From NCBI GenBank assembly GCA_963931925.1, contig OZ007571.1, positions 53,692,763 through 53,756,762 of the forward strand: 64,000 bases of DNA, in the 5' to 3' direction. The translations under genes were made by a program, and so were the position numbers. Position 1 is the stretch's first letter. Every line of letters starts with the position of its first letter. Source of the DNA: Onchidella celtica. Its lineage: Eukaryota; Mollusca; Gastropoda; Systellommatophora; Onchidiidae. This document shows, piece after piece, positions 19,233-52,264 of this stretch. The notes beneath the pieces are model-generated. The model worked only from the letters and a program-made list of their open reading frames with translations, had not been told where the DNA came from and did not search any database.

Positions 19233-20471
19233 TGTCACAAATCCCAGACTGGGAAAGGTAATAGTTTATGACAGGACGACAATCACGAACAAACAAGTTT
19301 AACACTTAACAAAACAACCCATCAGACTCACACATTTATTAAACATAATTATACATACAATAGCGCAACTACATATATTATATTATTGAAATGACTGCCG
19401 TACAACGGCCTTATTCTCACACACACGCTCCCTCGGATCCACAATCCGGTAGTTACTCCTAAAGGCACTTCGGCCTCAGCCTCTCCCCTCAGGGTCTTAA
19501 TAGTACATTAATGATTCACTGGCACCGCAGTCTCTCAATATCACCTTCCTATTGTCATACACCTTAGCACTCCCCTAGCACCTCCGCAGGGCAATAACAC
19601 ATTATTATTTCCATAGCCATCAACATGGCAACAACATAATATCAGTTCACTAGCCTATCAACATGGCAACAATATAGTATCTCATTCACTCTCATATCTA
19701 CGTCCCTGTCCGTGGCCTGACTGCCACGACTTTAGGTGCCTCTACTGTCCTGCACTGACAGCCTCACTTCTGGCCTATGTGTGGCCCCCGGCCCTATGCT
19801 GGCCTATCCCCTGTGCTCATCGAGGTGGCTCTGCGGCCCGTCCCCGACACCTACAAGAATAACATTACATTGGTATAATATCCTACCATTTCTATTCACT
19901 CCACCTCTCCTTACAATCCATGAAGCGTACACACACTAGTTCACCTTTCACTCACCACACATCTTACGGTAACACACTTCCATCGGAGTACACACTACTC
20001 ACTCGCGCTACAAATCCATGAACTCACTTTCATCTATCGCTCGTGGCGCACATTGCTATATCCAATATCAAGGACTTCCACATTCCTCACATATACTTAT
20101 TCACATCATGGTAATAGACGAATATAATATAATACATCAATCATAATAATCAATCAACGTTCTACATACCAGTCATAACTGGAAAGACTCTCACTAGTCT
20201 TCTCGACTGCTTCCCTTTATGTCCGCCCGATGGGCTTTTATTCACAGGTCCGATCCGTAGGACCTTCTAACTTGCAGTGATAGTAATCCAGCGCTTTCGC
20301 CTCATTCAGACTTCCACACCACTCATACACGCACGCTTTTCCCACTTGTCTGCATGAGTTATTTTTACTCTTCCCCTTTCACGTCTTTTCCTATCCGTCT
20401 GTCGTGAGCTCTTCTTATTCTACACCCGCTCTGTAGCAATCCCCTTAATTGCACTCACTCCACTCGTGACA
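19233..20471 (-). mobile_element. Solo LTR (~1.24 kb), copy 1
   Basis: The element begins TGTCACAAATCCCAGACTGG and ends CACTCGTGACA, so it has TG...CA termini with a short TGTCAC/GTGACA inverted end. It is flanked by a perfect 5-bp duplication GACAT (19228-19232, 20472-20476). These features and the length fit a solo LTR of an LTR retrotransposon. An AATAAA near one end, read on the minus strand, suggests minus orientation. There is no internal coding region. It sits inside the LINE coding region and is therefore younger than the LINE. A second copy at 46352-47527 is clearly related but diverged. The family is not assigned. Confidence 0.75.
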
Positions 20472-20476
20472 GACAT

Positions 20477-23400
20477 CGCTGCCCTTCAAGAAACTCGACT
20501 TCCCGACTCCGGGTCAGTCAAAGAAGAAAACTACACCTTCTTCTGGCAGGGCCTTAGCAGCGAACAGCCGAGAATCCACGGCGTGGGCTTCGCCGTAAAA
20601 AACTCCCTTATCAATTCGATCGCAACTCCAATTGGAGTGTCAGAACGCATCATGACACTCAGACTGGACACCCGGTCTGGTTTTACCAACATTATCTGTG
20701 TCTATGCCCCAACACTTACCTCCTCTGACGAAACCAAAGACATTTTCTACGAGGCATTGCAGAGGACTCTCCACAACATCCCTCTCACCGAAGGCCTGCT
20801 AATTCTGGGTGACTTTAACGCTCGAGTGGGAGCAGATCACTCCGCATGGCCAAAGTGCATTGGGCACTTCGGCATTGGCAACATCAACGAAAACGGGCAG
20901 CGCCTTCTGGAGCTATGCTCCGTAAACTCATTATGTGTTACAAACACGTACTTTGACCTTAAGAGATGCCAAAGAACATCATGGCGCCATCCCAGGTCTG
21001 GCCATTGGCATCAATTAGATCTTATTCTCTCAAGGAGGAAGAGTTTGGGCTGTATAAAAATAACTCGTTCCCTCCACAGTGCTGACTGTGACACCGACCA
21101 TGCACTGGTAGTCAGCAAAATCAAAATTTCGGCCAAGAAAATATACAGATCAAAAGCCCCTTCAATCCCTAAGATCAATGTAACAGCAATCAGAGATGAA
21201 TCAAATAGAAAGTCATTTGAAAAGTTATTTGCTGAAAGCATGGATAATGTCACCCAATGTGACTCGGTAGATGAAACATGGAACACTCTCAGTTCAAAAA
21301 TTCATGACTGTGCCATCAAGTCTTTTGGACAGCATAAAGTTTCAAACAACGACTGGGTAGCCCAGAACAGCGAAATTCTCCTACCTCTCATTGAGCAAAA
21401 GAAATCTGCTTTCAATGAGTATAACAAAAATTGCAATCAGAGTACAAAAACTTGTTTGAAAAATGCAAAAGCTAAACTTCAGCTGGAGGTAAGACGTTGC
21501 GCCAACAAATACTGGACAGACTTGTGTAACAGCATACAAGAGGCAAATGAAAAGGGAGATATGAAAACCGCCTTTAGTCAGATGAAAGTAGCTCTTGGGC
21601 CAATCATCACCAAAAGCGCCCCACTTAAGTCTGTAAATGGTGAACCCATCACAGATAAAAATGAACAACTGAATAGGTGGGTAGAGCATTACTCTCTGTT
21701 GTATTCAACTGAGAAAAATATTCCACCAGATTTTGAGGAACACCTCCAAAAACTGCCAATAATGGCCGAACTTGACGCTGAACCTTCCTTAGTCGAGCTT
21801 TCCAATGCAATCGACCACCTGTCTGCTGGAAAAGCCACAGGAAGTGACAACATTCCTGCAGAGGTATTAAAAGACCTAAAAGGCCCACTATTACCACACC
21901 TGTATAATCTGTTACTGCAGTGTTGGAAAGAAGGCGTGATACCACATGATATGAGAGACGCCAAAATTGTCACACTTTACAAGAACAAAGGAGACAAAGG
22001 CGACTGCAACAACTATCGAGGCATATCCCTCCTCAGCATTACTGGAAAGGCTTTTGCTCGCGTCATCCTCTGCCGCCTTCAACAACTGGCGGAAAAAGTC
22101 TTACCAGAAACACAATGTGGCTTTCGAAGCAAACGATCAACTATTGACATGATATTTGCACTTCGGCAAATCCAAGAAAAATGTAAAGAACAAAACAGGC
22201 CGCTTATAACATGCTTTGTGGACCTAACAAAGGCTTTCGACACCGTAAGCCGATCTGGCCTGTATGCAGTCCTTAAATCCATAGGCTGTCCACCAACATT
22301 GCTAAAACTTATTGCATCCTTCCACACTGACATGAGGGCATGTGTCAACTTTGAGGGCTGCACATCCAATTCATTTGCTGTAAACAGCGGTGTGAAGCAG
22401 GGATGTGTTCTTGCTCCTACCTTATTTGGTATATATTTTGCAGCCCTACTCAAGAATGCCTTTGGTCAATGTTCAGGTGGAGTACTTATTAACACCAGAG
22501 TGGACGGCTCCATTTTTAATGTTGCCAGACTAAAAGCAAAATCTCGTACAGAGCATATTATGTTACAAGAGCTCCTCTTCGCAGATGATGCTGCAATCGT
22601 GGCCCACGATGAAACCACGCTCCAGGCTCTCATCAATAGCCTTGCCAAAGCCTGTGACAAATTCATGCTAAAGATCAGTGTCTCAAAAACTGTAGTTTTG
22701 ACACAAGGCTTGAGAAACCCCAACCCAATCATGCTGAATGGCTCTCCTCTGGAGCAAGTGGGAAAATTCTGCTACCTAGGCTCAACCATCAGTGGTAGCA
22801 CAGACATAACAACTGAAATAAATGCCAGAATAGGAAAGGCGGCCACAGCTTTTGGCAAACTCTCAAAAAGGGTGTGGAACAATAGCAAGCTGACCATCAA
22901 AACAAAGGTACTCGTGTACCAAACTTGCGTCCTAAGCACCCTGCTGTATGGCTCAGAGACATGGACCACCTACTCCAAACATGAAAGATCCCTCAACTCC
23001 TTCCACCTGCGCTGCCTACGCAAAATTCTCAAGATCAAGTGGCAAGACAGGATCTCAAATATCGAAGTTCTGAGCCGAGCCAACATTCCATCAACTCAGG
23101 CTCTCCTAGGCAAAAAAAGACTGCGGTGGCTTGGACATCTCCACCGTATGGAAAATGATCGCATCCCCAGACAAATTCTCTACGGGGAACTTGCTACTGG
23201 CAACCGACCAAGAGGTAGGCCACATCTGCGATTCAAAGACACTTGCAAGGTCACGATGAAAGCATTCAACATTGACCCCAATGAATGGGAGAACCTTGCA
23301 AATGATCGAAGCAGATGGAGACAAAAATTGCGCAGTGGCACGCTCGCAATAGACTTCAAGGCAAAAGAAACATACCTGACAAAACGACAGAGGCGGAATG

Positions 23401-23510
23401 AAAACACTCGCCAAAGTGAACCCAAAAGACTGACCTGCAATCACTGCCATCGCACTCTCGGGTCAAACATTGGTAGAATAAGCCACGTGAGAAGCTGTCA
23501 GTCAAAGTGA
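20477..23510 (+). CDS. LINE endonuclease/reverse transcriptase, main part
   Basis: About 1010 residues remain open to the stop. Counting from 20466, APE endonuclease motifs come first: IAALQETR, LILGDFNARVG (about residue 112), WRHPRSGHWHQLDLI and CDTDHALV. The reverse transcriptase follows with NNYRGISLLS, motif A DLTKAFDT (about 586), motif B GVKQGCVLAPTLFG, and the catalytic FADDA (about 705). Then come FCYLGSTIS and a C-terminal region with YGSETW, GNRPRGRP and a CNHCHRTL...H...C finger near residues 990-1012. The enzyme would nick target DNA and copy its own RNA (target-primed reverse transcription). The catalytic residues I can see are present and the frame has no internal stop downstream of the LTR, so this copy looks fairly young apart from the insertion. 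Confidence 0.9.
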
Positions 23511-28356: not shown

Positions 28357-28950
28357 TTGAAGCATTCTAAAAATAGTCCTTGTGTAGGCTATCGTGTCAT
28401 ACGACATCGTGACCTACTCTTTCACTACGCAGTAGGTTATTTGGCCTGTTTCCTGTCCCTTTTTTGTTTTGTTTTACTACATCTGAATTTAATCCCCAAG
28501 CTGCGGAACCTAGCCCACAAACTGCCAAACCTAACCCTCAAGTTGCAGAACCTAACCCTCAAGTTGCAGAACCTAATCCCCAAGCTGCAGAATCTAATCC
28601 CCAAGCTGCAGGACCTAATCCCAAAACTGCAGAACCCAATTCCCAAGCTGCAGAACCCAATCCCCAAACTGCAGAACTCAATTCCCAAGCTGCAGAACCC
28701 AATCCCCAAAGTGAAGAGCCCGACCCCCTTTCCTCAAGACGCAAAATCCAAAAGTAGAAAACGGAAACGAGGAAAAAGCCAAAAGGAGCACATGAAAGAG
28801 ATATACAATAATGAAATGGAATGTACAAGTTCCAGAGGAAAACTTGTCCCACAAGGGAAAGTCGGGCGTGGCTGCAATGATACATGCAAAAGACAATGCC
28901 ATAAGGAAGTCAACGAAGAACAAAGGCAGGCTTATTATAAAATTCAACAG
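28357..28950 (+). CDS. Element B protein fragment with C-x3-C-x3-C motif
   Basis: The frame opens at 28357. From about 28490 to 28700 it is made of 21-bp repeats (7-residue units such as NLIPKLQ). It then reads KSRKRKRGKSQKEH, a basic stretch, and RGCNDTCKRQCHKEV followed by EQRQAYYKIQQ. This order matches element A residues about 390-455: a KRKR stretch, then GCGATCRNKC, then QEERTDIF. At 28950/28951 there is a CAG|GT that could be a splice donor. Reading through instead ends at 28998 inside a duplicated segment. The repeat part is also open in a second + frame (28464-28757, NPQAAEP units), so the frame used upstream of the basic stretch is unclear. Partial gene, function unproven. Confidence 0.45.
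28500..28705 (+). repeat. 21-bp coding-type minisatellite
   Basis: About ten copies of a unit like 'aatccccaagctgcagaac' (period 21) are open in two + frames and one - frame. Units differ by one to three bases. Confidence 0.85.
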
Positions 28951-29440
28951 GTTTTTATTTCTTATTTTTTACTTTTCATTACAATGGATGACGGCTAACA
29001 CGTGAATAACTAAGATCATTTAAACTTGTTTATACTGTCGAATAAAACTTTGAGAACCATTCAATCAGGATTTGAATTATTTGTTTATTGCTTATCAACT
29101 AATACATTATTGTTTGCGTTATGTCTGATCTTTTTGTTACCGTTCAGTTTTATTGTTGAGTTATCGTTTTATTCAAGTTTATTGGACATTCAATTGGTTT
29201 TTATTTCTTATTTTTTACATTTCATTACAATGGATGGCGGCTAACACGTGAATAACTAAGGTCATTTAAACTTTTTTATACTGTCGATGAAAACTTTGAG
29301 GACCGTTCAAATGGACTTGAATTATTTGTTTATGGCTTATCAACTAATAAATTTGTTTGCGTTATGTCTGATCTTTTTATTACCGTTCAGTTCTATTGTT
29401 GAGTTATCGTTTTATTCAAGTTTATTGGACATTGACAAGA
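28951..29440 (+). repeat. ~246-bp direct tandem duplication
   Basis: The segment beginning GTTTTTATTTCTTATTTTTT at 28951 starts again at 29197 and stays alignable to about 29440. Both copies carry 'acaatggatg(a/g)cggctaacacgtgaataacta' and 'ttattgttgagttatcg'. Substitutions and short indels show the duplication is not recent. Confidence 0.85.
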
Positions 29441-33069: not shown

Positions 33070-36000
33070 AACGAGCAAGTAATGTGTAAGAGGGAGCGAG
33101 AAAGAGAGAGAACGAAACCAGCTGTCAAACATAACTCATGTTCCCACCTGTTTGGGGAGGACCAGAGCCAGAGAGAACGGGAGGGGGAGAAAGAGAGAGA
33201 GAGAGAGAGAGAGAGAAAGAACGAAGCCAACTAACACTTAACTCATTTTCCCACCTGTTTGTGGAGGCCCAGCGACAGAGAGAGAAAGAGAGATAGAACG
33301 AAGCCAACTGTAAAACACGACTCATTTTCCCAAATGTTTAGGGAGGACTAGCGACAGAGAGAGAAAGAAAGAGAGAGAACGAAGTCAACTGTAAAACACG
33401 ACTCATTTTCCCAAATGTTTTGGGGAGGACTAGCGACAAAGAGAGAAAGAAAGAGAGAGAACGAAGTCAACTGTAAAACACGACTCATTTTCCCAAATGT
33501 TTGGGGGGGGGGGGGACTAGCGACAGAGAGAGAAAGAAAGAGAGAGAACGAAGTCAACTGTAAAACACGACTCATTTTCCCAAATGTTTGGGGAGGACTA
33601 GCGACAGAGAGAGAAAGAAAGAGAGAGAACCAAGTCAACTGTAAAACACGACTCATTTTCCCAAATGTTTGGGGAGGACTAGCGACAGAAAGAGAAAGAA
33701 AGAGAGAGAACGAAGTCAACTGTAAAACATAACTCATTTTCCCAAATGTTTGGGGAGGACTAGCGACAGAGAGAGAAAGAAAGAGAGAGAACGAAGTCAA
33801 CTGTAAAACACGACTCATTTTCCCAAATGTTTTGGGGAGGACTAGCGACAGAGAGAGAAAGAGAGAGAACCAAGTCAACTGTAAAACACGACTCATTTTC
33901 TCAAATGTTTTGGGGAGGACTAGCGACAGAGAGAGAAAGAAAGAGAGAGAACGAAGTCAACTGTAAAACACGACTCATTTTCCCAAATGTTTGGGGAGGA
34001 CTAGCGACAGAGAGAGAAAGAGAGAGAACCAAGTCAACTGTAAAACACGACTCATTTTTCCAAATGTTTTGGGGAGGACTAGCGACAGAGAGAGAAAGAA
34101 AGAGAGAGAACGAAGTCAACTGTAAAACATAACTCATTTTCCCAAATGTTTGGGGAGGACTAGCGACAGAGAGAGAAAGAAAGAGAGAGAACGAAGTCAA
34201 CTGTAAAACACGACTCATTTTCCCAAATGTTTGGGGAGGACTAGCGACAGAGAGAGAAAGAAAGAGAGAGAACCAAGTCAACTGTAAAGCACGACTCATT
34301 TTCCCAAATGTTTTGGGGAGGACTAGCGACAGAGAGAGAAAGAAAGAGAGAGAACGAAGTCAACTGTAAAACATAACTCATTTTCCCAAATGTTTGGGGA
34401 GGACTAGCGACAGAGAGAGAAAGAAAGAGAAAGAACGAAGTCAACTGTAAAACACGACTCATTTTCCCAAATGTTTTGGGGAGGAATAGCGACAGAGAGA
34501 GAAAGAAAGAGAGAGAACGAAGTCAACTGTAAAAACACGACTCATTTTCCCAAATGTTTGGGGAGGACTAGCGACAGAGAGAGAAAAAGAGAGAGTCGAG
34601 TCAACTGTAAAACACGACTCATTTTCCCAAATGTTTTGGGGAGGACTAGCGACAGAGAGAGAAAGAAAGAGAGAGAACGAAGTCAACTGTAAAACACGAC
34701 TCATTTTCCCAAATGTTTTGGGGAGGACTAGCGACAGAGAGAGAAAGAGAGAGAACCAAGTCAACTGTAAAACACGACTCATTTTCTCAAATGTTTTGGG
34801 GAGGACTAGCGACAGAGAGAGAAAGAAAGAGAGAGAACGAAGTCAACTGTAAAACACGACTCATTTTCCCAAATGTTTGGGGAGGACTAGCGACAGAGAG
34901 AGAAAGAGAGAGAACCAAGTCAACTGTAAAACACGACTCATTTTTCCAAATGTTTTGGCCAGGACTAGCGACAGAGAGAGAAAGAAAGAGAGAGAACGAA
35001 GTCAACTGTAAAACATAACTCGTTTTCCCAAATGTTTGGGGAGGACTAGCGACAGAGAGAGAAAGAAAGAGAGAGAACGAAGTCAACTGTAAAACACGAC
35101 TCATTTTCCCAAATGTTTGGGGAGGACTAGCGACAGAGAGAGAAAGAAAGAGAGAGAACCAAGTCAACTGTAAAGCACGACTCATTTTCCCAAATGTTTT
35201 GGGGAGGACTAGCGACAGAGAGAGAAAGAAAGAGAGAGAACGAAGTCAACTGTAAAACATAACTCATTTTCCAAAATGTTTGGGGAGGACTAACGACAGA
35301 GAGAGAAAGAAAGAGAAAGAACGAAGTCATCTGTAAAACACGACTCATTTTCCCAAATGTTTTGGGGAGGAATAGCGACAGAGAGAGAAAGAAAGAGAGA
35401 GAACGAAGTCAACTGTAAAAACACGACTCATTTTCCCAAATGTTTGGGGAGGACTAGCGACAGAGAGAGAAAAAGAGAGAGTCGAGTCAACTGTAAAACA
35501 CGACTCATTTTCCCAAATGTTTTGGGGAGGACTAGCGACAGAGAGAGAAAGAAAGAGAGAGAACGAAGTCAACTGTAAAACACGACTCATTTTCCCAAAT
35601 GTTTTGGGGAGGACTAGCGACAAAGAGAGAAAGAAAGAGAGAGAACGAAGTCAACTGTAAAACACGACTCATTTTCCCAAATGTTTTGGGGAGGACTAGC
35701 GACAAAGAGAGAAAGAAAGAGAGAGAACGAAGTCAACTGTAAAACACGACTCATTTTCCCAAATGTTTGGGGGGGGGGGGACTAGCGACAGAGAGAGAAA
35801 GAAAGAGAGAGAACCAAGTCAACTGTAAAACACGACTCATTTTCCCAAATGTTTGGGGAGGACTAGCGACAGAGAGAGAAAGAAAGAGAGAGAACGAAGT
35901 CAACTGTAAAACATAACTCATTTTCCCAAATGTTTGGGGAGGACTAGCGACAGAGAGAGAAAGAAAGAGAGAGAACGAAGTCAACTGTAAAACACGACTC

Positions 36001-39000
36001 ATTTTCCCAAATGTTTTGGGGAGGACTAGCGACAGAGAGAGAAAGAGAGAGAACCAAGTCAACTGTAAAACACGACTCATTTTCTCAAATGTTTTGGGGA
36101 GGACTAGCGACAGAGAGAGAAAGAAAGAGAGAGAACGAAGTCAACTGTAAAACACGACTCATTTTCCCAAATGTTTGGGGAGGACTAGCGACAGAGAGAG
36201 AAAGAGAGAGAACCAAGTCAACTGTAAAACACGACTCATTTTTCCAAATGTTTTGGGGAGGACTAGCGACAGAGAGAGAAAGAAAGAGAGAGAACGAAGT
36301 CAACTGTAAAACATAACTCATTTTCCCAAATGTTTGGGGAGGACTAGCGACAGAGAGAGAAAGAAAGAGAGAGAACGAAGTCAACTGTAAAACACGACTC
36401 ATTTTCCCAAATGTTTGGGGAGGACTAGCGACAGAGAGAGAAAGAAAGAGAGAGAACCAAGTCAACTGTAAAGCACGACTCATTTTCCCAAATGTTTTGG
36501 GGAGGACTAGCGACAGAGAGAGAAAGAAAGAGAGAGAACGAAGTCAACTGTAAAACATAACTCATTTTCCCAAATGTTTGGGGAGGACTAGCGACAGAGA
36601 GAGAAAGAAAGAGAAAGAACGAAGTCAACTGTAAAACACGACTCATTTTCCCAAATGTTTTGGGGAGGAATAGCGACAGAGAGAGAAAGAAAGAGAGAGA
36701 ACGAAGTCAACTGTAAAAACACGACTCATTTTCCCAAATGTTTGGGGAGGACTAGCGACAGAGAGAGAAAAAGAGAGAGTCGAGTCAACTGTAAAACACG
36801 ACTCATTTTCCCAAATGTTTTGGGGAGGACTAGCGACAGAGAGAGAAAGAAAGAGAGAGAACGAAGTCAACTGTAAAACACGACTCATTTTCCCAAATGT
36901 TTTGGGGAGGACTAGCGACAGAGAGAGAAAGAGAGAGAACCAAGTCAACTGTAAAACACGACTCATTTTCTCAAATGTTTTGGGGAGGACTAGCGACAGA
37001 GAGAGAAAGAAAGAGAGAGAACGAAGTCAACTGTAAAACACGACTCATTTTCCCAAATGTTTGGGGAGGACTAGCGACAGAGAGAGAAAGAGAGAGAACC
37101 AAGTCAACTGTAAAACACGACTCATTTTTCCAAATGTTTTGGGGAGGACTAGCGACAGAGAGAGAAAGAAAGAGAGAGAACGAAGTCAACTGTAAAACAT
37201 AACTCATTTTCCCAAATGTTTGGGGAGGACTAGCGACAGAGAGAGAAAGAAAGAGAGAGAACGAAGTCAACTGTAAAACACGACTCATTTTCCCAAATGT
37301 TTGGGGAGGACTAGCGACAGAGAGAGAAAGAAAGAGAGAGAACCAAGTCAACTGTAAAGCACGACTCATTTTCCCAAATGTTTTGGGGAGGACTAGCGAC
37401 AGAGAGAGAAAGAAAGAGAGAGAACGAAGTCAACTGTAAAACATAACTCATTTTCCCAAATGTTTGGGGAGGACTAGCGACAGAGAGAGAAAGAAAGAGA
37501 AAGAACGAAGTCAACTGTAAAACACGACTCATTTTCCCAAATGTTTTGGGGAGGAATAGCGACAGAGAGAGAAAGAAAGAGAGAGAACGAAGTCAACTGT
37601 AAAAACACGACTCATTTTCCCAAATGTTTGGGGAGGACTAGCGACAGAGAGAGAAAAAGAGAGAGTCGAGTCAACTGTAAAACACGACTCATTTTCCCAA
37701 ATGTTTTGGGGAGGACTAGCGACAGAGAGAGAAAGAAAGAGAGAGAACGAAGTCAACTGTAAAACACGACTCATTTTCCCAAATGTTTTGGGGAGGACTA
37801 GCGACAAAGAGAGAAAGAAAGAGAGAGAACGAAGTCAACTGTAAAACACGACTCATTTTCCCAAATGTTTTGGGGAGGACTAGCGACAAAGAGAGAAAGA
37901 AAGAGAGAGAACGAAGTCAACTGTAAAACACGACTCATTTTCCCAAATGTTTGGGGGGGGGGGGGGACTAGCGACAGAGAGAGAAAGAAAGAGAGAGAAC
38001 CAAGTCAACTGTAAAACACGACTCATTTTCCCAAATGTTTGGGGAGGACTAGCGACAGAGAGAGAAAGAAAGAGAGAGAACGAAGTCAACTGTAAAACAT
38101 AACTCATTTTCCCAAATGTTTGGGGAGGACTAGCGACAGAGAGAGAAAGAAAGAGAGAGAACGAAGTCAACTGTAAAACACGACTCATTTTCCCAAATGT
38201 TTTGGGGAGGACTAGCGACAGAGAGAGAAAGAGAGAGAACCAAGTCAACTGTAAAACACGACTCATTTTCTCAAATGTTTTGGGGAGGACTAGCGACAGA
38301 GAGAGAAAGAAAGAGAGAGAACGAAGTCAACTGTAAAACACGACTCATTTTCCCAAATGTTTGGGGAGGACTAGCGACAGAGAGAGAAAGAAAGAGAGAG
38401 AACGAAGTCAACTGTAAAACATAACTCATTTTCCCAAATCTTTGGGGAGGACTATCGACAGAGAGAGAAAGAAAGAGAAAGAACGAAGTCAACTGTAAAA
38501 CACGACTCATTTTCCCAAATGTTTTGGGGAGGAATAGCGACAGAGAGAGAAAGAAAGAGAGAGAACGAAGTCAACTGTAAAAACACGACTCATTTTCCCA
38601 AATGTTTGGGGAGGACTAGAGACAGAGAGAGAAAAAGAGAGAACCAAGTCAACTGTAAAACACGACTCATTTTCCCAAATGTTTTGGGGAGGACTAGCGA
38701 CAGAGAGAGAAAGAAAGAGAGAGAACGAAGTCAACTGTAAAACACGACTCATTTTCCCAAATGTTTTGGGGAGGACTAGCGACAAAGAGAGAAAGAAAGA
38801 GAGAGAACGAAGTCAACTGTAAAACACGACTCATTTTCCCAAATGTTTGGGGGGGGGGGGGGACTAGCGACAGAGAGAGAAAGAAAGAGAGAGAACGAAG
38901 TCAACTGTAAAAACACGACTCATTTTCCCAAATGTTTGGGGAGGACTAGCGACAGAGAGAGAAAAAGAGAGAACCAAGTCAACCGTAAAACACGACTCAT

Positions 39001-40850
39001 TTTCCCAAATGTTTTGGGGAGGACTAGCGACAGAGAGAGAAAGAAAGAGAGAGAACGAAGTCAACTGTAAAACACGACTCATTTTCCCAAATGTTTTGGG
39101 GAGGACTAGCGACAAAGAGAGAAAGAAAGAGAGAGAACGAAGTCAACTGTAAAACACGACTCATTTTCCCAAATGTTTGGGGGGGGGGGGGGACTAGCGA
39201 CAGAGAGAGAAAGAAAGAGAGAGAACGATGTCAACTGTAAAACACGACTCATTTTCCCAAATGTTTGGGGAGGACTAGCGACAGAGAGAGAAAGAAAGAG
39301 AGAGAACGAAGTCAACTGTAAAACACGACTCATTTTCCCAAATGTTTGGGGAGGACTAGCGACAGAGAGAGAAAGAAAGAGAGAGAACGAAGTCAACTGT
39401 AAAACATAACTCATTTTCCCAAATGTTTGGGGAGGACTAGCGACAGAGAGAGAAAGAAAGAGAGAGAACGAAGTCAACTGTAAAACACGACTCATTTTCC
39501 CAAATGTTTTGGGGAGGACTAGCGACAGAGAGAGAAAGAGAGAGAACCAAGTCAACTGTAAAACACGACTCATTTTCTCAAATGTTTTGGGGAGGACTAG
39601 CGACAGAGAGAGAAAGAAGGAGAGAGAACGAAGTCAACTGTAAAACACGACTCATTTTCCCAAATGTTTGGGGAGGACTAGCGACAGAGAGAGAAAGAAA
39701 GAGAGAGAACGAAGTCAACTGTAAAACATAACTCATTTTCCCAAATCTTTGGGGAGGACTAGCGACAGAGAGAGAAAGAAAGAGAAAGAACGAAGTCAAC
39801 TGTAAAACACGACTCATTTTCCCAAATGTTTTGGGGAGGAATAGCGACAGAGAGAGAAAGAAAGAGAGAGAACGAAGTCAACTGTAAAAACACGACTCAT
39901 TTTCCCAAATGTTTGGGGAGGACTAGAGACAGAGAGAGAAAAAGAGAGAACCAAGTCAACTGTAAAACACGACTCATTTTCCCAAATGTTTTGGGGAGGA
40001 CTAGCGACAGAGAGAGAAAGAAAGAGAGAGAACGAAGTCAACTGTAAAACACGACTCATTTTCCCAAATGTTTTGGGGAGGACTAGCGACAAAGAGAGAA
40101 AGAAAGAGAGAGAACGAAGTCAACTGTAAAACACGACTCATTTTCCCAAATGTTTGGGGGGGGGGGGGGACTAGCGACAGAGAGAGAAAGAAAGAGAGAG
40201 AACGAAGTCAACTGTAAAAACACGACTCATTTTCCCAAATGTTTGGGGAGGACTAGCGACAGAGAGAGAAAAAGAGAGAACCAAGTCAACTGTAAAACAC
40301 GACTCATTTTCCCAAATGTTTTGGGGAGGACTAGCGACAGAGAGAGAAAGAAAGAGAGAGAACGAAGTCAACTGTAAAACACGACTCATTTTCCCAAATG
40401 TTTTGGGGAGGACTAGCGACAAAGAGAGAAAGAAAGAGAGAGAACGAAGTCAACTGTAAAACACGACTCATTTTCCCAAATGTTTGGGGGGGGGGGGGGG
40501 GACTAGCGACAGAGAGAGAAAGAAAGAGAGAGAACGAAGTCAACTGTAAAACACGACTCATTTTCCCAAATGTTTGGGGAGGACTAGCGACAGAGAGAGA
40601 AAGAAAGAGAGAGAACGAAGTCAACTGTAAAACATAACTCATTTTCCCAAATGTTTGGGGAGGACTAGCGACAGAGAGAGAAAGAAAAAGAGAGAACGAA
40701 GTCAACTGTAAAACATAACTCATTTTCCCAAATGTTTTGGGGAGGACTAGCGCCGTAGAAAAGAGAGAGAACGGGGGAATGGGAGGGGGGGGGTGTGAGC
40801 TCTAAATCGAACTCGTTTTTCCACTTGTTTGGGGAGGTATAATGCCAAAT
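33070..40850 (+). repeat. ~81-bp satellite array with higher-order structure (~7.7 kb)
   Basis: About 94 tandem monomers of ~81 bp. Each has a GA-rich half (gacagagagagaaagaaaga gagagaac) and a unique half (gaagtcaactgtaaaacacg, then actcattttcccaaatgttt, then ggggaggactagc). Monomer variants (78, 81 and 82 bp; TAAAGCACG; AACATAACTC; GGAATAGC; GTCGAGTC) recur in the same order. Segments recur at 886 bp (33827 and 34713; 36011 and 36897), at 2184 bp (33827 and 36011; 34286 and 36470) and at 1307 bp (38519 and 39826; 38843 and 40150). The outermost monomers (33070-33330, 40740-40850) are strongly diverged, as expected at satellite edges. Long frames on both strands arise because 81 is divisible by 3. 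I do not call them genes. Confidence 0.95.
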
Positions 40851-44812: not shown

Positions 44813-44816
44813 CTCT

Positions 44817-44994
44817 AAGACCAGAAGCACACGAGTGCTTTTTTTTTAGCTACCAGTCCGAGAAACTATTTAGTTATCGATAATTAAAATGTTACTTTTC
44901 ACTTTGGAGATTAAAGAAATCACTCGTATGCGCTTCAAACAGGAGGGCCATTTCGCCGCCCGGGAATAATACTGTCGTAAGTCCAAAAAATGCG
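44817..44994 (+). repeat. Left terminal inverted repeat of element A
   Basis: Two blocks match the right end. The outer block is at about 44817-44876 and the inner block at 44954-44994 (CGCCGCCCGGGAATAATACT and onward). A ~75-bp segment between them is present only on the left, so the two arms differ by an indel. Confidence 0.75.
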
Positions 44995-45217
44995 TTTTTG
45001 AGATATTTATATCACTGAAATCGGCAGAACGAGGCGCATCCGATGGATCTATTTATAGAATGCAAATCCTGAAAATGAAAATGCTATCGTCGAAGGTTTT
45101 TAGTCGTAAGTACACGTCCTCAAAAATATCTTGGGAGAACACAGTCGGATCTTGACTTACCACAAGCCATCCCTATCAACAGGGGAAAGTTCGGGAATAC
45201 TACTGTCGTAAGTTGAC
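44961..45217 (+). promoter_or_regulatory. Subterminal motif cluster, left side
   Basis: CGGGAATAATACTGTCGTAA at 44961 and CGGGAATACTACTGTCGTAA at 45192 are near-identical direct copies. A partial copy, GTCGTAAGTA, lies near 45104. Repeated subterminal words of this kind commonly bind a transposase, which is an inference here. Confidence 0.6.
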
Positions 45218-45612
45218 ATGCGACTTTAGAGTCGCGAGAAATGAATCTCAATGGACAGAGTATCATTGCTGAACAAGAGATACGACTGTGGTAGGATGAA
45301 AATGAATACATACATCACCATTGTGTATGGTAACAATAATTAGCACAAAGTATTATTATTTAAACTTAATGCAAAAATACACATCTGTGAAAAATAATTC
45401 TTTTCTTTTTTTTTTTTGTTTCCGGCACGAAACAGATTTTTACCAATCTGCGAATCATTTCCGACGTTTTTTTCTTTTGAATTCACATTCCAATATGGTA
45501 TGCAGATGTTAAGGCCAGTAGGGCTACCATGCCCTGGCCATTCCTGTTCCTGCTGTTTTCCCTCCATCCAGACAAGGCCAGGTGTTAGATCTACCCCTCC
45601 TTCGCTACATAT

Positions 45613-45618
45613 ATGCAG
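45613..45618 (+). CDS. Element A gene, exon 1 coding part (ATG-CAG)
   Basis: The sequence ATATATGCAG|GTAAGC gives a strong splice donor at 45618/45619. Joined to the acceptor TTTCAG|GAG at 48082/48083, ATG-CAG reads straight into GAG-CAT-TCC in phase 0. The upstream part of this exon has an in-frame stop (the TAG at 45585-45587), so this ATG is the first usable one. The protein would begin MQEHSLSMAS. The exon's 5' limit is unknown. The alternative is translation from the Met at 48098 without this exon. Confidence 0.5.
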
Positions 45619-48082
45619 GTAAGCAACTATAAATATGTTTGTATTTTTGTATAAATCTAGATATCTAGATCTAGATCTAAGTCCTTTTTATTTGTGCATA
45701 ATAATTAATTAGTTTGAATAAATGCATGCACGTAAGCGCGAGTGTGCGGGTATATGTTTGGTTGGGTGATGTGGTATCTTGTATTGTCCCAGGTTCAGGT
45801 TGATGTTAGTCCCCGTCAGTGACGAGTGTTTATGGCCCTTATGACATTACATGTGGGCTAATGGATGTCGTGACCAGGCATGGGGAGGAGGAAAGACGGG
45901 TGGTCTTTGCTCTTTGTGCCAGGTTGAAGAAGCAGATAACTCCATGATTGCTTAGACTACATCTAGATTACTTGGTGATTTGGCTGCCTTGCCGTTCGCA
46001 TCACTGTACTGCACACTCACTGTGTCTTCAAATCAGAATAGTATTACTCTGAGTGTTGTGAAAATAAAGTAAACGTTATCGAACTTCCCATGTATTTCCA
46101 CCACCTCTTATTGTTCAAACGACATTACAAGTGCACAAGTGTGTATAGATATCTAGTTTGTGAGTGTTTGTGGACGAGATTATTATAATTATGAATTTAT
46201 GTGTAGGCCTACGTGTCGCAGGTAGCCTATGCCCTACGTATGTCAGCATAATATGTGAGGGCCTATGGCACAATGCACGAAGCTTTTTTAATGTGTGTAC
46301 AATATATTGTTGGTTTGTGGCTTAACGTCTTCTTAGGAATGAAGTGTTTTATGTCACAAATCCCAGACTGGGAGATGCGATGGTTATAACAAGACAACAA
46401 TCACGAACGAACAAGTTTAACACTTAACAGAACAACCCATCAGACTCACACATTTATTATACATAAACATAAAGATAATAGCGCAAATACAGACATTATA
46501 TTATTCAATTCACTGCCGTACAACGGCCTTCTCCCGTACGCACACTTCATCGGGTCCACAACCCGGTAGTTACTTCCTGAGGACACTTCGGTCTCAGCTT
46601 CTCCTCTCCATGTCTTAATAGCACATTAATATTTCAATGGCACCGCAGTCTCTCAATAGCCCCTTCCTATGGCCATAACACATTAGCATTCCAATAGCAC
46701 ATCAACATGGCAATAGCACATTAGCATTTCAATAGCACATCAACATGGCAATAGCACATTAGCATTTCAACAACACATTCACGATCATATATACGTCCCT
46801 GTCGGTGGCCTGACTGCCACGACTCATGTGCTGCGACTGTCCTACACGACAGCGTCCTCCTGGCCTATGTGTGGCCTTCGGCCCTATGCTGGCCTATCCC
46901 CTGTGCTCACCGTAGGCGGCCGACCCCGGCACCTACAAGAATAACATTACATTGGTATAACACCATACCACTTCTATTCACTTCACCCCTCCTTACAACT
47001 CATGAAGAGTACACACAATAGTTCACATTTCACTCACCAAACATCTTACGGTAACACACCTCCACCGTAGTACACAATACTCACTCTCGCTACAAATCCA
47101 TGAACTCAACTTACATCTATCGCTCATGGCGCACATTGCTATATACAGTATCAAGGACTTCCACATTCCTCACATATACTTATTTACATCATGGTAATAG
47201 ACGAATATAATACATCAATCATAATTATCAATCATCGTTCCACCTACCAGTCATCACTGGAAAAAACACTACTCCCAAGTCTTCCGACTGCTCTCCTTAT
47301 GTTCGCCCTCTGGGGCTTTCTCCCGCGTCCGCTTCCTTGGACGTCTTAGTGTGCAGTGATAGTAATACAGCGCTCTCGCCTCATTCAGACCCCCCAACTC
47401 ACAACATGCACGCTTTAACGTTAACTAACAGAAGTCAATATAGGTGAGCAGCCTCACTATCCCGTGAGTCATTCCCTCACTTCCATGCCCCCGTAATCTC
47501 TGAATTCCACTCACTCCACTCGTGACATTTTATATCTCTTTCTTGTTCGCTTAAAATTTCAGGAGCAGTTGCTTACGTTGTGCTTGGTTCAGCTTAGCGG
47601 CCGTGTGGCGTTCTGAGTCTGACAAACCATAGTTTCCCTGGGTTAAAGTGTTCAAGTTGCTGTGGAATCTTATCATTGATTCACGATTGGTACCTATACA
47701 ATGCTTGTTGTCTTGGCCTTTGTAACAGTGGACAATCTTACTCATGATTATGGGTGCCTAAATACTATTTTTGTGTTGAACCAATGATCGTAAAACCTCA
47801 AACTCAAACTTATAATTTCCTACTTTGGTATGCTATTCCATTATAGGTCTTACAACAGCATGATAAACCCTCAGAAAAGGTAGGCCTATTTTCAGTTTAC
47901 TCGTGAGAATTGGATGCATTGTTATAAATGTAGGCTATAATACATGTAGTGCCATTGTAAGTTCGGTTCTGAACATGAGTTATGACTGCTAATATAGCAT
48001 TCCTTTTCATACACATTTCACATTGTAGCTCACACTTCAATCATAAGTTGTTAATTGTATGTTTCTGTTCTGTGTGTTTCAG
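45619..48082 (+). other. Predicted intron of element A gene (2464 bp)
   Basis: Bounded by GTAAGC and a pyrimidine-rich TTTCTGTTCTGTGTGTTTCA G acceptor. It contains no long frame of its own. About half of it is the solo LTR copy 2, which splicing would remove. Pairing this donor with this acceptor is a prediction from sequence only. Confidence 0.5.
46352..47527 (-). mobile_element. Solo LTR (~1.18 kb), copy 2
   Basis: Begins TGTCACAAATCCCAGACTGG and ends CACTCGTGACA, as copy 1 does. It is flanked by a perfect 5-bp duplication TTTTA (46347-46351, 47528-47532). A ~38-bp internal tandem repeat ('caatagcacatcaacatgg') at about 46680-46780 is expanded compared with copy 1. It lies in the intron of the element A gene and so is younger than element A. 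Diverged from copy 1, so the two are separate, not very recent insertions. Confidence 0.8.
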
Positions 48083-50926
48083 GAGCATTCCCTTTCAATG
48101 GCTTCCCATGTCCAGGCCAGCACCCATCAAGGGAACAGCCAGTACCAGGGATTCGGTCGACAGTGCACTGCTATGGCTATGGCTGCCATCGCCTACCACC
48201 AAGTCAGAGGTATTGCAGACTGGAATGTCATGGACATGGACAGCATAATGAGCAGAGGAGATCAATTATATACTCTCTCATCTCAGTTACAAAATGTAAC
48301 ATTTCTCTTACCATCTGATGTTGTACAAACTATTGACATTGATTTCAGCACTGTTACTATCAAGACCATGTCAGCACATAGTGGTGTGCTTAGTCTGAAC
48401 CTTGAAAATCAAGGTGATTTGCTGGCATTTCTTGACCTTGTTCAGCAAGCATGTATTCTGACTTTTGGACAGGTGCATTCATCCTATGCTATTGGTATCA
48501 TACGCGATGGGAATACAGTGTATGTTTTTGACTCACACAGTAGAGATGCGCAAGGGATGTGTGTGCCTGATGGGTATGCACGTGTCACTAAACATGTGAG
48601 CATGAGAGATGTTGTGCCATTTTTTGTTAACTTGGCTGATTCTGTCGGATTCGTGAATGAATGTCTTTTTGAAGTGGTAGAAGTTGAATCGTGCCTTGAG
48701 GAGCAACAACACCTTTTTGCAGATGACACAGGTATGAGTGATGAAGAGGACATACCCCTTATCCACCTCACAGCAAAAACTCGAGTCATTAGCACTCCCA
48801 CGAAGTCACCTGAAGTGTCTGATGAAGAAGACCCTGATTTTGAAGTACCATTGGCACGAGTTCAAGGAGAATTGAGAGCCAAAGAACACCCCTCCCAGTT
48901 GGATACACAAGACAGTTCCCTATCCATAACAATGTTTTTAGGGCCATGTAAGGAATTGGATCTGGAGGAAATGGATCACGACATGGTCATTGACACAGCA
49001 GCGCCCACTTTCATGTCAGAAATAAATGGAATGGGGCTGGATTCGATGGACAATGTCATGGCGTATGAAATTGACTACGCTGATATTGTGTACAACTTTG
49101 TGATGGAACAAGAAGAAGAAGGCACTGGGAGCCGAGAAGTTTCACTTGACGTCTCATCGTGCACAGACATTGCAAACTCAGCGGCAGTTAGTCCGTCTAC
49201 AACCCCACTTGTGTCTCGTCAGAGTAGGAAAAGACAAAGAGATGTGGACAGGTGGAAAGTGAACGTGAGGAAGAGGAAGAGAAACCAGGGAGAGGAATAT
49301 GAATCAAAGTCTGGAATCGTCAAGAGAAAGAAAGAACTGAAACCTGGATGTGGGGCCACGTGTCGAAATAAATGTCAGCTGGTTATAACCCAAGAAGAGA
49401 GGACAGACATATTTCATAACTTTTGGAAGATGGGTTGCCTCACTCAGCAAAGGGATTACCTGACCAAAGTTGTCACCAAACAAGTGAAGACAACTGCTAA
49501 AGTTTCAAAGCCTGATACAATGCGCAAATGGACTTACCAATACCACCTGAGGATCGGTGACAAACAAGTCAATGTGTGCAAAAAGATGTTTTTAGATACA
49601 TTGGACATATCTGAGAGGGTCGTCTTTACAGCACTGAACAAACAGACAGACCTAGGGATGTGCAGCACTGAGCAAAGAGGAAAACACAAACAGCGGGGGG
49701 TACCAGCGGAAAAAGAGAGGATAAGACAGCACATCAACAGCTTCCCTCGAATGGAAAGTCATTATTCAAGAAAAGATAGTAAAAGGGAGTACCTCGAAAG
49801 TTCTCTTAGCCTTCAAAAGATGTACACCATGTATGTTGAAACTCGAGAGACGGAAGGCTGTTACACACCAGCATCAGAAACAACATATAGACACCTGTTT
49901 AATTCAGAGTTTAACATCGGGTTTCACAAAAGGATGAAAGATCGTTGTGCCGCATACGAGAATACGAAAGATGGCATTGACGAGTACAAGGAGCATCTAA
50001 CACTCAAAGAGCAGAGTCGATTGTTCAAAGCAAAAGTCAAGGACGAGCTGGAGGAGAACCCATCTAAAGCAGCTGCAGTCTTTGACTTGAAGGAAGTGCT
50101 CCCTTGTCCATCAAGTAGTGAATCTTGTCTCTACTACAAGAGAAAATTGAGCACGTACAACTTGACCGTCTATGACTACAGGAATGGACAAGGCTATTGC
50201 TATGTGTGGCCAGAAGTGGCCGGTTTGAGAGGTTCAAATGAAATTGCATCGTGTGTTTTCAGATACCTGGCCAGAGTGAAGGCAGAAAGTGTGTCAGTTT
50301 CTGACATTGTACTATTTTCAGACAGCTGTGGGGGGCAGAACAGGAACAAGAACTTTTTGACTATGCTATGGTATGTCATGAGGAAAATGGAATTCAAAAC
50401 AATTGAGCATGTTTTCTTCGTGTCGGGGCATAGTCAAAATGAAGGTGACAGTATGCACTCAACGATTGAGAAGGCCAGTAGAAATGTTCCGGTGTATACG
50501 CCATCTCAGTGGCCTCAACTGATCCGAAGTGCGAAGAGAAAGAAGCCATTGTATGTGGTGGAAGAAATTGACAGGACAGACATGTTTGACTTCAAACAAA
50601 TTGCTGCCACCCTAAAAAACTTTGAGTTGGACACCGAAAAAGAAAAGGTGAAGTGGTTGAAAGTGAAGCGCTTCGGTTTATCTGCACAAGCACCAAACAT
50701 GGTGAAGGTCTATTATGACTACAGTGACAACTATAGATCCCTGAACCTCCTGCAGAAAATACGAGTGGTCCACCAGATTCCGGATGACAACGCAATTAAG
50801 TTGGAAAATGTTTCAAGCAAGCCGTATCCTTTGAGTGCTGACAAATATTCCGATTTAACCCACCTATGCAAAAACATCATACCCCATGCTCACCATGAGT
50901 TCTACAAAAGTCTTCCCCATCAATAA
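48083..50926 (+). CDS. Tegument-type deubiquitinase / DUF7869-like transposase fusion
   Basis: About 947 residues from this exon. Numbering is from the upstream ATG at 48059. (1) N-terminal ~200 residues: ASTHQGN...FGRQC, where Gln24 and Cys36 match the Gln and Cys of herpesvirus large-tegument deubiquitinases (peptidase C76; the cytomegalovirus protein starts with an ASCHQGD...NQC block). VYVFDSHSRD supplies the Asp158-x-His160 pair at the right distance. (2) An acidic linker, about 225-265 and onward. (3) A basic KRQRD...RKRKR stretch near 388-408. (4) Cys431-x3-Cys435-x3-Cys439. (5) A C-terminal RNase-H/DDE-like domain: TVYDYRNG (Asp706), LFSDSCGGQN (Asp755), and VSGHSQNEGDSMHSTIEK (His791, Asp797, Glu804). 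This resembles DUF7869-type proteins common in invertebrate repeats. I infer a transposase with an attached ubiquitin protease. The frame is intact over its whole length. The deubiquitinase assignment rests on motif spacing, not a search. Confidence 0.7.
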   Translation, partial: EHSLSMASHVQASTHQGNSQYQGFGRQCTAMAMAAIAYHQVRGIADWNVMDMDSIMSRGDQLYTLSSQLQNVTFLLPSDVVQTIDIDFSTVTIKTMSAHSGVLSLNLENQGDLLAFLDLVQQACILTFGQVHSSYAIGIIRDGNTVYVFDSHSRDAQGMCVPDGYARVTKHVSMRDVVPFFVNLADSVGFVNECLFEVVEVESCLEEQQHLFADDTGMSDEEDIPLIHLTAKTRVISTPTKSPEVSDEEDPDFEVPLARVQGELRAKEHPSQLDTQDSSLSITMFLGPCKELDLEEMDHDMVIDTAAPTFMSEINGMGLDSMDNVMAYEIDYADIVYNFVMEQEEEGTGSREVSLDVSSCTDIANSAAVSPSTTPLVSRQSRKRQRDVDRWKVNVRKRKRNQGEEYESKSGIVKRKKELKPGCGATCRNKCQLVITQEERTDIFHNFWKMGCLTQQRDYLTKVVTKQVKTTAKVSKPDTMRKWTYQYHLRIGDKQVNVCKKMFLDTLDISERVVFTALNKQTDLGMCSTEQRGKHKQRGVPAEKERIRQHINSFPRMESHYSRKDSKREYLESSLSLQKMYTMYVETRETEGCYTPASETTYRHLFNSEFNIGFHKRMKDRCAAYENTKDGIDEYKEHLTLKEQSRLFKAKVKDELEENPSKAAAVFDLKEVLPCPSSSESCLYYKRKLSTYNLTVYDYRNGQGYCYVWPEVAGLRGSNEIASCVFRYLARVKAESVSVSDIVLFSDSCGGQNRNKNFLTMLWYVMRKMEFKTIEHVFFVSGHSQNEGDSMHSTIEKASRNVPVYTPSQWPQLIRSAKRKKPLYVVEEIDRTDMFDFKQIAATLKNFELDTEKEKVKWLKVKRFGLSAQAPNMVKVYYDYSDNYRSLNLLQKIRVVHQIPDDNAIKLENVSSKPYPLSADKYSDLTHLCKNIIPHAHHEFYKSLPHQ

Positions 50927-51108
50927 GCTTAGTGTTTCATGAGTTCCCTTAAGGGTAGGCCTACCTTTTCTGAAAAGTATATTATTGTGCTTTTGATTGA
51001 TTTGTAGGCAGTGTGCAAGTGTTGTTTCTTATTACGCATGTGTTATGTCCAACGCGTGAGCCTAACTTAGAATGTCAGTACGAGAGTCTCTCCGTTTCAG
51101 TTTTTTTT

Positions 51109-51114
51109 AATAAA
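51109..51114 (+). terminator. Polyadenylation signal of element A gene
   Basis: AATAAA about 185 bp after the stop codon at 50924-50926. It is the first good signal downstream of the gene. Confidence 0.55.
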
Positions 51115-51812
51115 CAGTTTGAACACAATGTCCATCTTTGTCAAAGTCAAATTTTTCTTTTTTTTTTGTTCTTGTTCCTTAACTAAACTTTGGTAATCAC
51201 GTGCGGCAGGTTACGTCTGGCGTCATAATTTGTGAAATGTTAGAGAAGCTGACATCATGACCTGTAATGCTGCCGCAACATAATACATGGATCGAATAAA
51301 ATCGCACCTCCACCAATCACATACAAACAGCAGAACGAGCACTGTTTCCATCATGCTTGACAGACCAGCCAACTTGGCCGGGAATGGAACCCATGACTAT
51401 GCGAGGCAGACACCGGCACCGTTACATCAGCCGGTTTGAGCAACACTGAAGAGATAGGTACCGAGTGCTCGGTTTAACCCATGACAAAGTAATGACAGGT
51501 TTTAGGGGAAAAGAGATTCCTAGGAAACATACAGTATTTCTATGCAAATTTGTGTTAAATACTACACTAGGCTTGGTAGAAACACCTGAAATTATTTTGA
51601 CAAAAAATAGTTTTGCGTGAAGCATACAGACACATCTTTGTGTCAGGATATCTCAGGTGTTATTGGCTCTATGCGTTTGATATTTAGCACAGGTATATGC
51701 ACGACCATTCTAAAAGTTCTATTTCAAAATGGTGCTAATACGTTCAGAATTTTTCTTTTTTTCATTTAAAAAAAAGTGAAATTTCAATTTTTTTTTCCCA
51801 AAAAGCAAAGGG

Positions 51813-52173
51813 ATCCCGGGATTAAAACTGTCGCAACTTGACAACCGACACCTGAAAACTCGCATTACGAACACAAAAGTGACAGAACTCAACTTACGAC
51901 AGTATTATTCCCAACTTTCTCTTTGATTGGAAGTCGGATGTCAACATACGACAGTATTCTTCCCGGAAATTTGGCCAGAATTCGAGACAACTACTCGATC
52001 TCCTATTTTCACTTTCACTAAATACAAAATGACTTGACAAATACATGCATTCATACATTGTGATACACATATCAAAATTTGGGTTCAATATAATGAAAAA
52101 TGACTGAAATAAACAGTTTTTTCCTTCTCCTGTAAAAATGGGTTTTTGGACTTCCGACAGTATTATTCCCGGG
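51813..52173 (-). promoter_or_regulatory. Subterminal motif cluster, right side
   Basis: Three reversed copies of the left-end motif lie at about 51891-51913, 51942-51966 and 52151-52173 (each ACGACAGTATTATTCCC or near). One weaker forward copy lies at about 51815-51842 (CCCGGGATTAAAACTGTCGC). Confidence 0.6.
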
Positions 52174-52257
52174 CGGCGATTTGTTCTATTCCGGTAACTA
52201 AATAGTCTCTCGGACTGGACAACTAAAACATCACTCGTGTGCTCCTGGCCTTATTTT
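52141..52257 (-). repeat. Right terminal inverted repeat of element A
   Basis: The reverse complement carries CCAGGAGCACACGAGTG, CCAGTCCGAGAGACTATTTA and CGCCGCCCGGGAATAATACT, in the same order as the left end. Confidence 0.75.
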
Positions 52258-52264
52258 CTCTAAG

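Follow-up and report, generated by a model that had tools for sequence, protein, structure and literature searches.

A predicted tegument-like deubiquitinase fused to a predicted D-D-D transposase in a nested DNA transposon of Onchidella celtica

Organization of the Locus

We analyzed a stretch of 64,000 nucleotides from the gastropod Onchidella celtica (contig OZ007571.1, positions 53,692,763 to 53,756,762), hereafter called the window. From its letters alone, an original prediction had described positions 44813-52264 as one undescribed transposon with terminal inverted repeats (TIRs) and a single large fusion gene. The long inverted matches that it reported at both ends are real, and pair 44816-44844 with 52225-52253, 44853-44879 with 52192-52218, 44953-44989 with 52143-52179, and 45192-45226 with 51931-51965. 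The locus is nested three deep, because an insert of 1176 bp lies within a gene-bearing transposon, which we call family A, and this transposon lies within an older miniature inverted-repeat transposable element (MITE). These elements and their borders are as follows.

44816..44953, plus strand: left half of the older MITE of ~215 bp, left ATTT included; short genomic copies match this part only
44950..44953, no strand: left target duplication ATTT, from copy alignment and a check in the window
44954..52178, plus strand: family A transposon, 7225 bp including the later insert of 1176 bp; four aligned copies have the same ends
44954..44989, plus strand: left TIR of family A, 97% complementary to the right repeat
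46352..47527, no strand: 1176-bp insert acquired later, of the form TG...CA between two copies of a duplicated TTTTA and resembling a solo long terminal repeat; absent from two independent copies
52143..52178, minus strand: right TIR of family A, pairing with the left repeat
52179..52182, no strand: right target duplication ATTT, from copy alignment and a check in the window
52183..52253, plus strand: right half of the older MITE, from short genomic copies

The borders were settled by searching the same genome (1.14 Gb, 43 contigs) for copies. When positions 44813-45250 were used as the query, three other places matched deeply and many matched the first ~140 bases only; the right-end query gave a similar pattern. 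The outer ~140 bases were found without the gene in many short inverted-repeat elements of ~215 bp. All 52 fetched short-match loci, some of which overlap one place, aligned to the joined outer halves, and 16 of them spanned the junction, beginning no more than 15 bases from the start and reaching base 205 or further. Intact MITEs elsewhere are related empty sites. Two independent gene-bearing copies, at C4:59.86M and C5:41.90M, have the inner arms, CGCCGCCCGGGAATAATACTGTCG, as their termini and lie in unrelated surroundings; therefore, the gene-bearing element is 44954-52178, inside an older MITE. The same termini, in inverted orientation, were confirmed in the window.

A single transposon spanning 44813-52264, with two-block inverted ends and a duplication of 7-8 bp, would account for the alignment of the inverted blocks and for the CTCTAAG found on both sides, at 44813 and 52258. 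We give this reading almost no credence, since the independent copies extend no further than the inner arms and the outer ends are also found by themselves in short elements. CTCTAAG was accordingly rejected as a target duplication; that of the transposon is the 4-bp ATTT. The original prediction was right that a transposon exists here, but had merged two nested elements, and it placed the borders outside the true ones. It had also named, as a case against itself, inverted ends occurring alone as a MITE around a host gene: the outer ends do form a MITE, but the gene belongs to the transposon.

As to the MITE's own duplication, several of the 16 near-complete copies are flanked by TTA or TAA on each side and others are not. 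Parts of its right half are repeated in tandem at ~82-bp steps at G000:C16:22968911-22969553 and C5:2573409-2573811, which has the look of satellite seeding.

The Gene and Its Fusion Protein

The family A transposon contains a long open frame at 48059-50926 (955 aa), within and around which the following features were placed.

45619..48082, plus strand: possible intron in the 5′ untranslated region, CAG/GTAAGC ... TTTCAG/GAGC, judged by eye
48098..50926, plus strand: fusion-protein gene from the ATG after the predicted 3′ splice site, 942 aa
48098..48712, plus strand: predicted N-terminal tegument-like (VTD) deubiquitinase domain, residues 1-205
49235..50923, plus strand: transposase part, residues ~380-942, with D663, D742 and D784
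49935..49955, plus strand: nine bases missing relative to two independent copies, with loss of one conserved cysteine (copy comparison)
51109..51114, plus strand: candidate AATAAA polyadenylation signal

A Pfam scan found DUF7869 in the C-terminal part (E 9.5e-11). The catalytic triad was invariant, with D at its third position in 37 of 37 aligned proteins, and an RNase H fold was predicted for this part by a structure model. The transposase is predicted to be a D-D-D cut-and-paste enzyme. In the N-terminal part, the model gave a papain-like fold of the M48/DrT1 type (PDB 2J7Q and 8ADD as VTD references), and the catalytic Cys and the Asp-x-His of the peptidase are present in 7/7 and 8/8 aligned sequences, respectively. 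These features point to a predicted tegument-like deubiquitinase. A sequence search of solved structures gave no match; in a protein search, the closest named relatives of the fusion protein were from Littorina.

Copies of Family A and Their State

The two independent copies measure 6060 and 6066 bp, are both flanked by ATAT/ATAT, and are 98.6% identical to the window copy and 99.2% identical to each other; the difference in length from the window copy corresponds mostly to the 1176-bp TG...CA insertion. The same insertion is present once more 130.7 kb beyond this one, with 8886 bp shared at 99.99% identity; the shared part starts 21 bases left of the element and runs through the rest of the fetched sequence. 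This extent of identity indicates that the segment was duplicated, in the genome or in the assembly, and that no new insertion took place. Further copies in the same genome, for which the original prediction had proposed a search, were thus found; their flanks differ, and the length of the duplication stays constant.

At a tolerance of up to 3 mismatches, the 24 terminal bases occur at 17 sites genome-wide, of which eight are exact and correspond to the ends of the four copies; the reversed control pattern gave 0 genomic sites. Four of the nine lone or inexact end sites were fetched and proved to be elements of 76-78 bp with little beyond the ends, two of them having a perfect duplication (AAAT or ATTT).

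The cysteine lost in the window copy belongs to an alignment column that is at least 90% conserved among the 37 proteins. The independent copies contain stops and an expanded G run and have a frameshift in common, and no clearly intact copy of family A was found. Although the one long gene of the original prediction is present as an open frame, its loss of nine bases suggests that the window copy is probably inactive and no longer autonomous.

Sister Families and Insertion Sites

A protein search of the same genome, in which 48 of 1735 candidates were scored, gave at least 75 matches. Among the matches listed, 14 loci that score identically, each with a 1014-aa open frame, form family B, two copies of which are 99.94% identical over 5255 bp and have the termini CGAGGGCCGCC. 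Because these 14 open-frame copies score equally, family B moved recently and, to judge by its sequences, is a recently active family. Three more families were delimited: family C (5310 bp, termini CGCTGGCTGGG), family D (4931 bp, termini CGCGGGCGGTA) and family E (5110 bp, termini CGCGGGTGGTA). All five families, A-E, have 5′-CG ends, one large gene and 4-bp duplications.

Identical 4-bp flanks were found in all 29 insertions with both ends located, namely, 3/3 in family A (counted as three independent insertions), 14/14 in B, 6/6 in C, 4/4 in D and 2/2 in E. The duplication was of the type AWWT in 19 of them and ANNT in 24. The first family D duplication was found with a script that demanded matching ANNT and hence carries less weight; the three other family D copies were checked without this demand. 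An AAAC duplication in family E is given on the record strand and corresponds to GTTT in the orientation of the element, which leaves the AWWT and ANNT counts unaffected.

On its own, the window copy could give the appearance of a host gene flanked by chance by inverted repeats. Unlinked copies that share these ends and have perfect duplications, together with the 14 equally scoring open-frame copies of the sister family, argue so strongly for a transposon that we consider the host-gene explanation negligible, the least credible of all those weighed here.

Subterminal Motifs and a Right-End Signature

The original prediction had noted a cluster of subterminal motifs at both ends, and this was borne out. 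A repeated motif of ~15 bases, AATACTGTCGTAAGT, occurs at six sites, all within 360 bases of an end, where 0.2 sites are expected in the family A element.

44968..44982, plus strand: AATACTGTCGTAAGT copy 1, within the left terminal repeat
45199..45213, plus strand: AATACTGTCGTAAGT copy 2
51824..51838, plus strand: AATACTGTCGTAAGT copy 3, 3 mismatches
51892..51906, minus strand: AATACTGTCGTAAGT copy 4
51944..51958, minus strand: AATACTGTCGTAAGT copy 5
52126..52137, minus strand: TTTTACAGGAGA right-end signature, common to five families
52150..52164, minus strand: AATACTGTCGTAAGT copy 6, within the right terminal repeat

Repeated motifs clustered at the ends were also found in families B (11 sites), C (4) and E (6), against expectations of 0.0-0.35 for these families and A. 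The word used for family D gave 62 sites versus 56.9 expected and is too short to discriminate. The signature TTTTACAGGAGA, which is on the opposite strand, lies 42-54 bp from the right end, and is exact in A, B, C and E, in each of which it has a single exact occurrence, and has two mismatches in D. In the first 200 bases of all five families, the best match was no better than 4 mismatches. TTTTACAGGAGA is kept across families although their terminal repeats differ, and our guess is that it may be a binding site.

Relatives with VTD, OTU or No Peptidase

An OTU cysteine protease replaces the tegument-like domain in the DUF7869 transposases P0067, P0096, P0102 and P0120, which form a clade of their own in a tree that took in 87 of the 144 proteins having the domain. 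The VTD and OTU profiles used were built partly from proteins that they later matched (7 VTD, 2 OTU). In P0131, which falls outside the VTD clade, a VTD region was recognized by the custom profile and a domain listing and was absent from the Pfam scan at E 0.01.

Herpes_teg_N was found at 33 places in the genome: 19 lie in transposase-matching frames, six more are within ~3 kb of a transposase match, and 8 of the 33 were not linked to a transposase in a by-eye comparison against the 48 scored candidates. The family B peptidase alone, used as a protein query, retrieved one protein, which has no transposase in Pfam. The transposase profile gave 24 pattern matches in viral contigs and 41 in prokaryote species genomes, none of which was confirmed. 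One fusion protein, P0049, is labelled as coming from a bacterial metagenome-assembled genome (Candidatus Thiodiazotropha) and probably represents host DNA within a symbiont bin.

Comparison with Known Transposons

Sola elements have been described as having a DDD transposase, 4-bp duplications, TIRs and a size of 2 to 9 kb (PMC10741241, in the part available), and the duplications of Sola2 as 4-bp AWWT, such as ATAT, AAAT and ATTT (PMC3627910, likewise in part). The elements reported here share with Sola2 the AWWT-type duplications, the DDD transposase, the TIRs and a fitting size. The fused tegument-like deubiquitinase sets them apart, being without mention in the available Sola descriptions of both papers. 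Judged by duplications and DDD marks, they are likely to belong to Sola2. The DUF7869 elements might instead form a separate DDD superfamily that resembles Sola2 in duplication length and base preference only. In favor of this, the likeness was judged from printed descriptions, and no mention of DUF7869 was found in the literature searched. The DDD motif, the AWWT 4-bp duplications and the size all fit the Sola/Sola2 marks in the available parts of the printed descriptions, and we regard a separate superfamily as unlikely.

Ginger1 also combines a cut-and-paste transposase with a ubiquitin- or SUMO-type protease and has 4-bp duplications. According to the part of PMC2836005 available, its protease is a C-terminal OTU or Ulp1, its duplications are CCGG/CCGT and its ends are TGTNR, whereas here a VTD stands at the N-terminus, the duplications are of the AWWT type and the ends are 5′-CG. 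The ends, duplications and domains exclude membership in Ginger1.

With the VTD deubiquitinases of herpesvirus large tegument proteins and of Helitrons/Helentrons, the N-terminal domain shares the predicted papain-like fold and the order of Cys and Asp-x-His, and, with those of Helitrons/Helentrons, a place on a transposon. VTD and OTU are alternatives within Helitrons, and the DUF7869 group likewise has both. The transposon cases named in the available part of PMC9741609 are rolling-circle Helitrons, in contrast to the D-D-D transposase fusion seen here; the same part mentions unnamed transposon-associated domains beside cnidarian VTDs, and uses the word "transposase" once and "Sola" and "DDE" never. 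Helitrons encode RepHel and have neither inverted ends nor such duplications. Helitron membership was excluded by the TIRs and duplications, and Pfam showed DUF7869 and no helicase in the scanned proteins.

In the literature searched, with Repbase and Dfam lying outside that search, we found no account of a D-D-D transposase fused to a VTD-type deubiquitinase. The element is "undescribed" in part: the AWWT duplications and the DDD transposase point to Sola2, an apparent parent group already known, although the fused VTD deubiquitinase turned up in none of the papers searched.

Proposed Role of the Deubiquitinase

Taken together, these data show that 44954-52178 is a transposon in an older MITE, and make it probable that its protein joins a predicted D-D-D transposase to a predicted tegument-like deubiquitinase, which would likely protect the transposition machinery. 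The transposase may bind the repeated subterminal motifs and cut at the 5′-CG ends, and the element would be joined to target DNA cut with a 4-bp stagger at an AT-rich site, AWWT being preferred. The attached deubiquitinase may remove ubiquitin carried by the transposase or by proteins at the cut ends, which would keep the complex from destruction before insertion. A protective use of VTD has been proposed for Helitrons (PMC9741609, in the part available).

Several observations weigh against this interpretation. Herpes_teg_N scored 24.4 bits in the N-terminal part, versus a cut-off of 25, and the structure model had a pTM of 0.48, so that it does not fix the relative placement of the domains. 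Of the four short derivatives, two have no perfect duplication, and one further family C locus, outside the 29 insertions, lacks a left end in the fetched stretch. Family C and most transposase relatives are without the peptidase, which argues that the transposase group does not need it.

That family C manages without the domain would also suit an N-terminal domain that no longer removes ubiquitin and persists as a remnant or as a module for binding; insects are known to have tegument-like domains that are inactive (PMC9741609, available part). The conservation of the catalytic Cys and Asp-x-His speaks against such a loss, as does a selection test in which replacement changes in the peptidase between families were fewer than silent changes, the silent sites being saturated. 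We consider an inactive domain improbable, a little more so than a separate superfamily. A protease target other than the transposition complex, such as germ-line repair or silencing factors, has appreciable plausibility while staying clearly below an even chance. A role in DNA repair was suggested for the Ginger protease (PMC2836005), and the male germ line was a subject of speculation for VTD (PMC9741609), each in the available part of the paper; nothing in our analysis counts against this target.

More tentatively, and a little short of an even chance, a cut-and-paste group may have built in, and may depend on, a herpesvirus-type deubiquitinase that shields its transposition complex, with a sister lineage doing likewise with an unrelated OTU. 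If so, herpesviruses and DNA transposons would have used one and the same enzyme against a common host barrier. Deubiquitinase-like proteases recur in selfish DNA, including herpesviruses, Helitrons and Ginger1. The simple build of family B, with its open-frame copies, makes excision and insertion, together with a point mutation of the deubiquitinase, accessible to assay. DUF7869, a Pfam domain of unknown function, gains a likely role, that of a DDD transposase for which ends and target sites have been mapped.

Other Features of the Window

At 28714-28986, tblastn matches (E 4.6e-6 and 2.9e-5) to the zinc-binding part of DUF7869 transposases mark a remnant, probably from an older element of the same group. 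A 1014-aa endonuclease-reverse transcriptase frame at 20466-23510 looks intact and belongs to a non-LTR retrotransposon (RVT_1 E 3.3e-33). Positions 33198-40752 hold a tandem array of 7.5 kb with a unit of 82/160 bp, the units being 92-93% alike.

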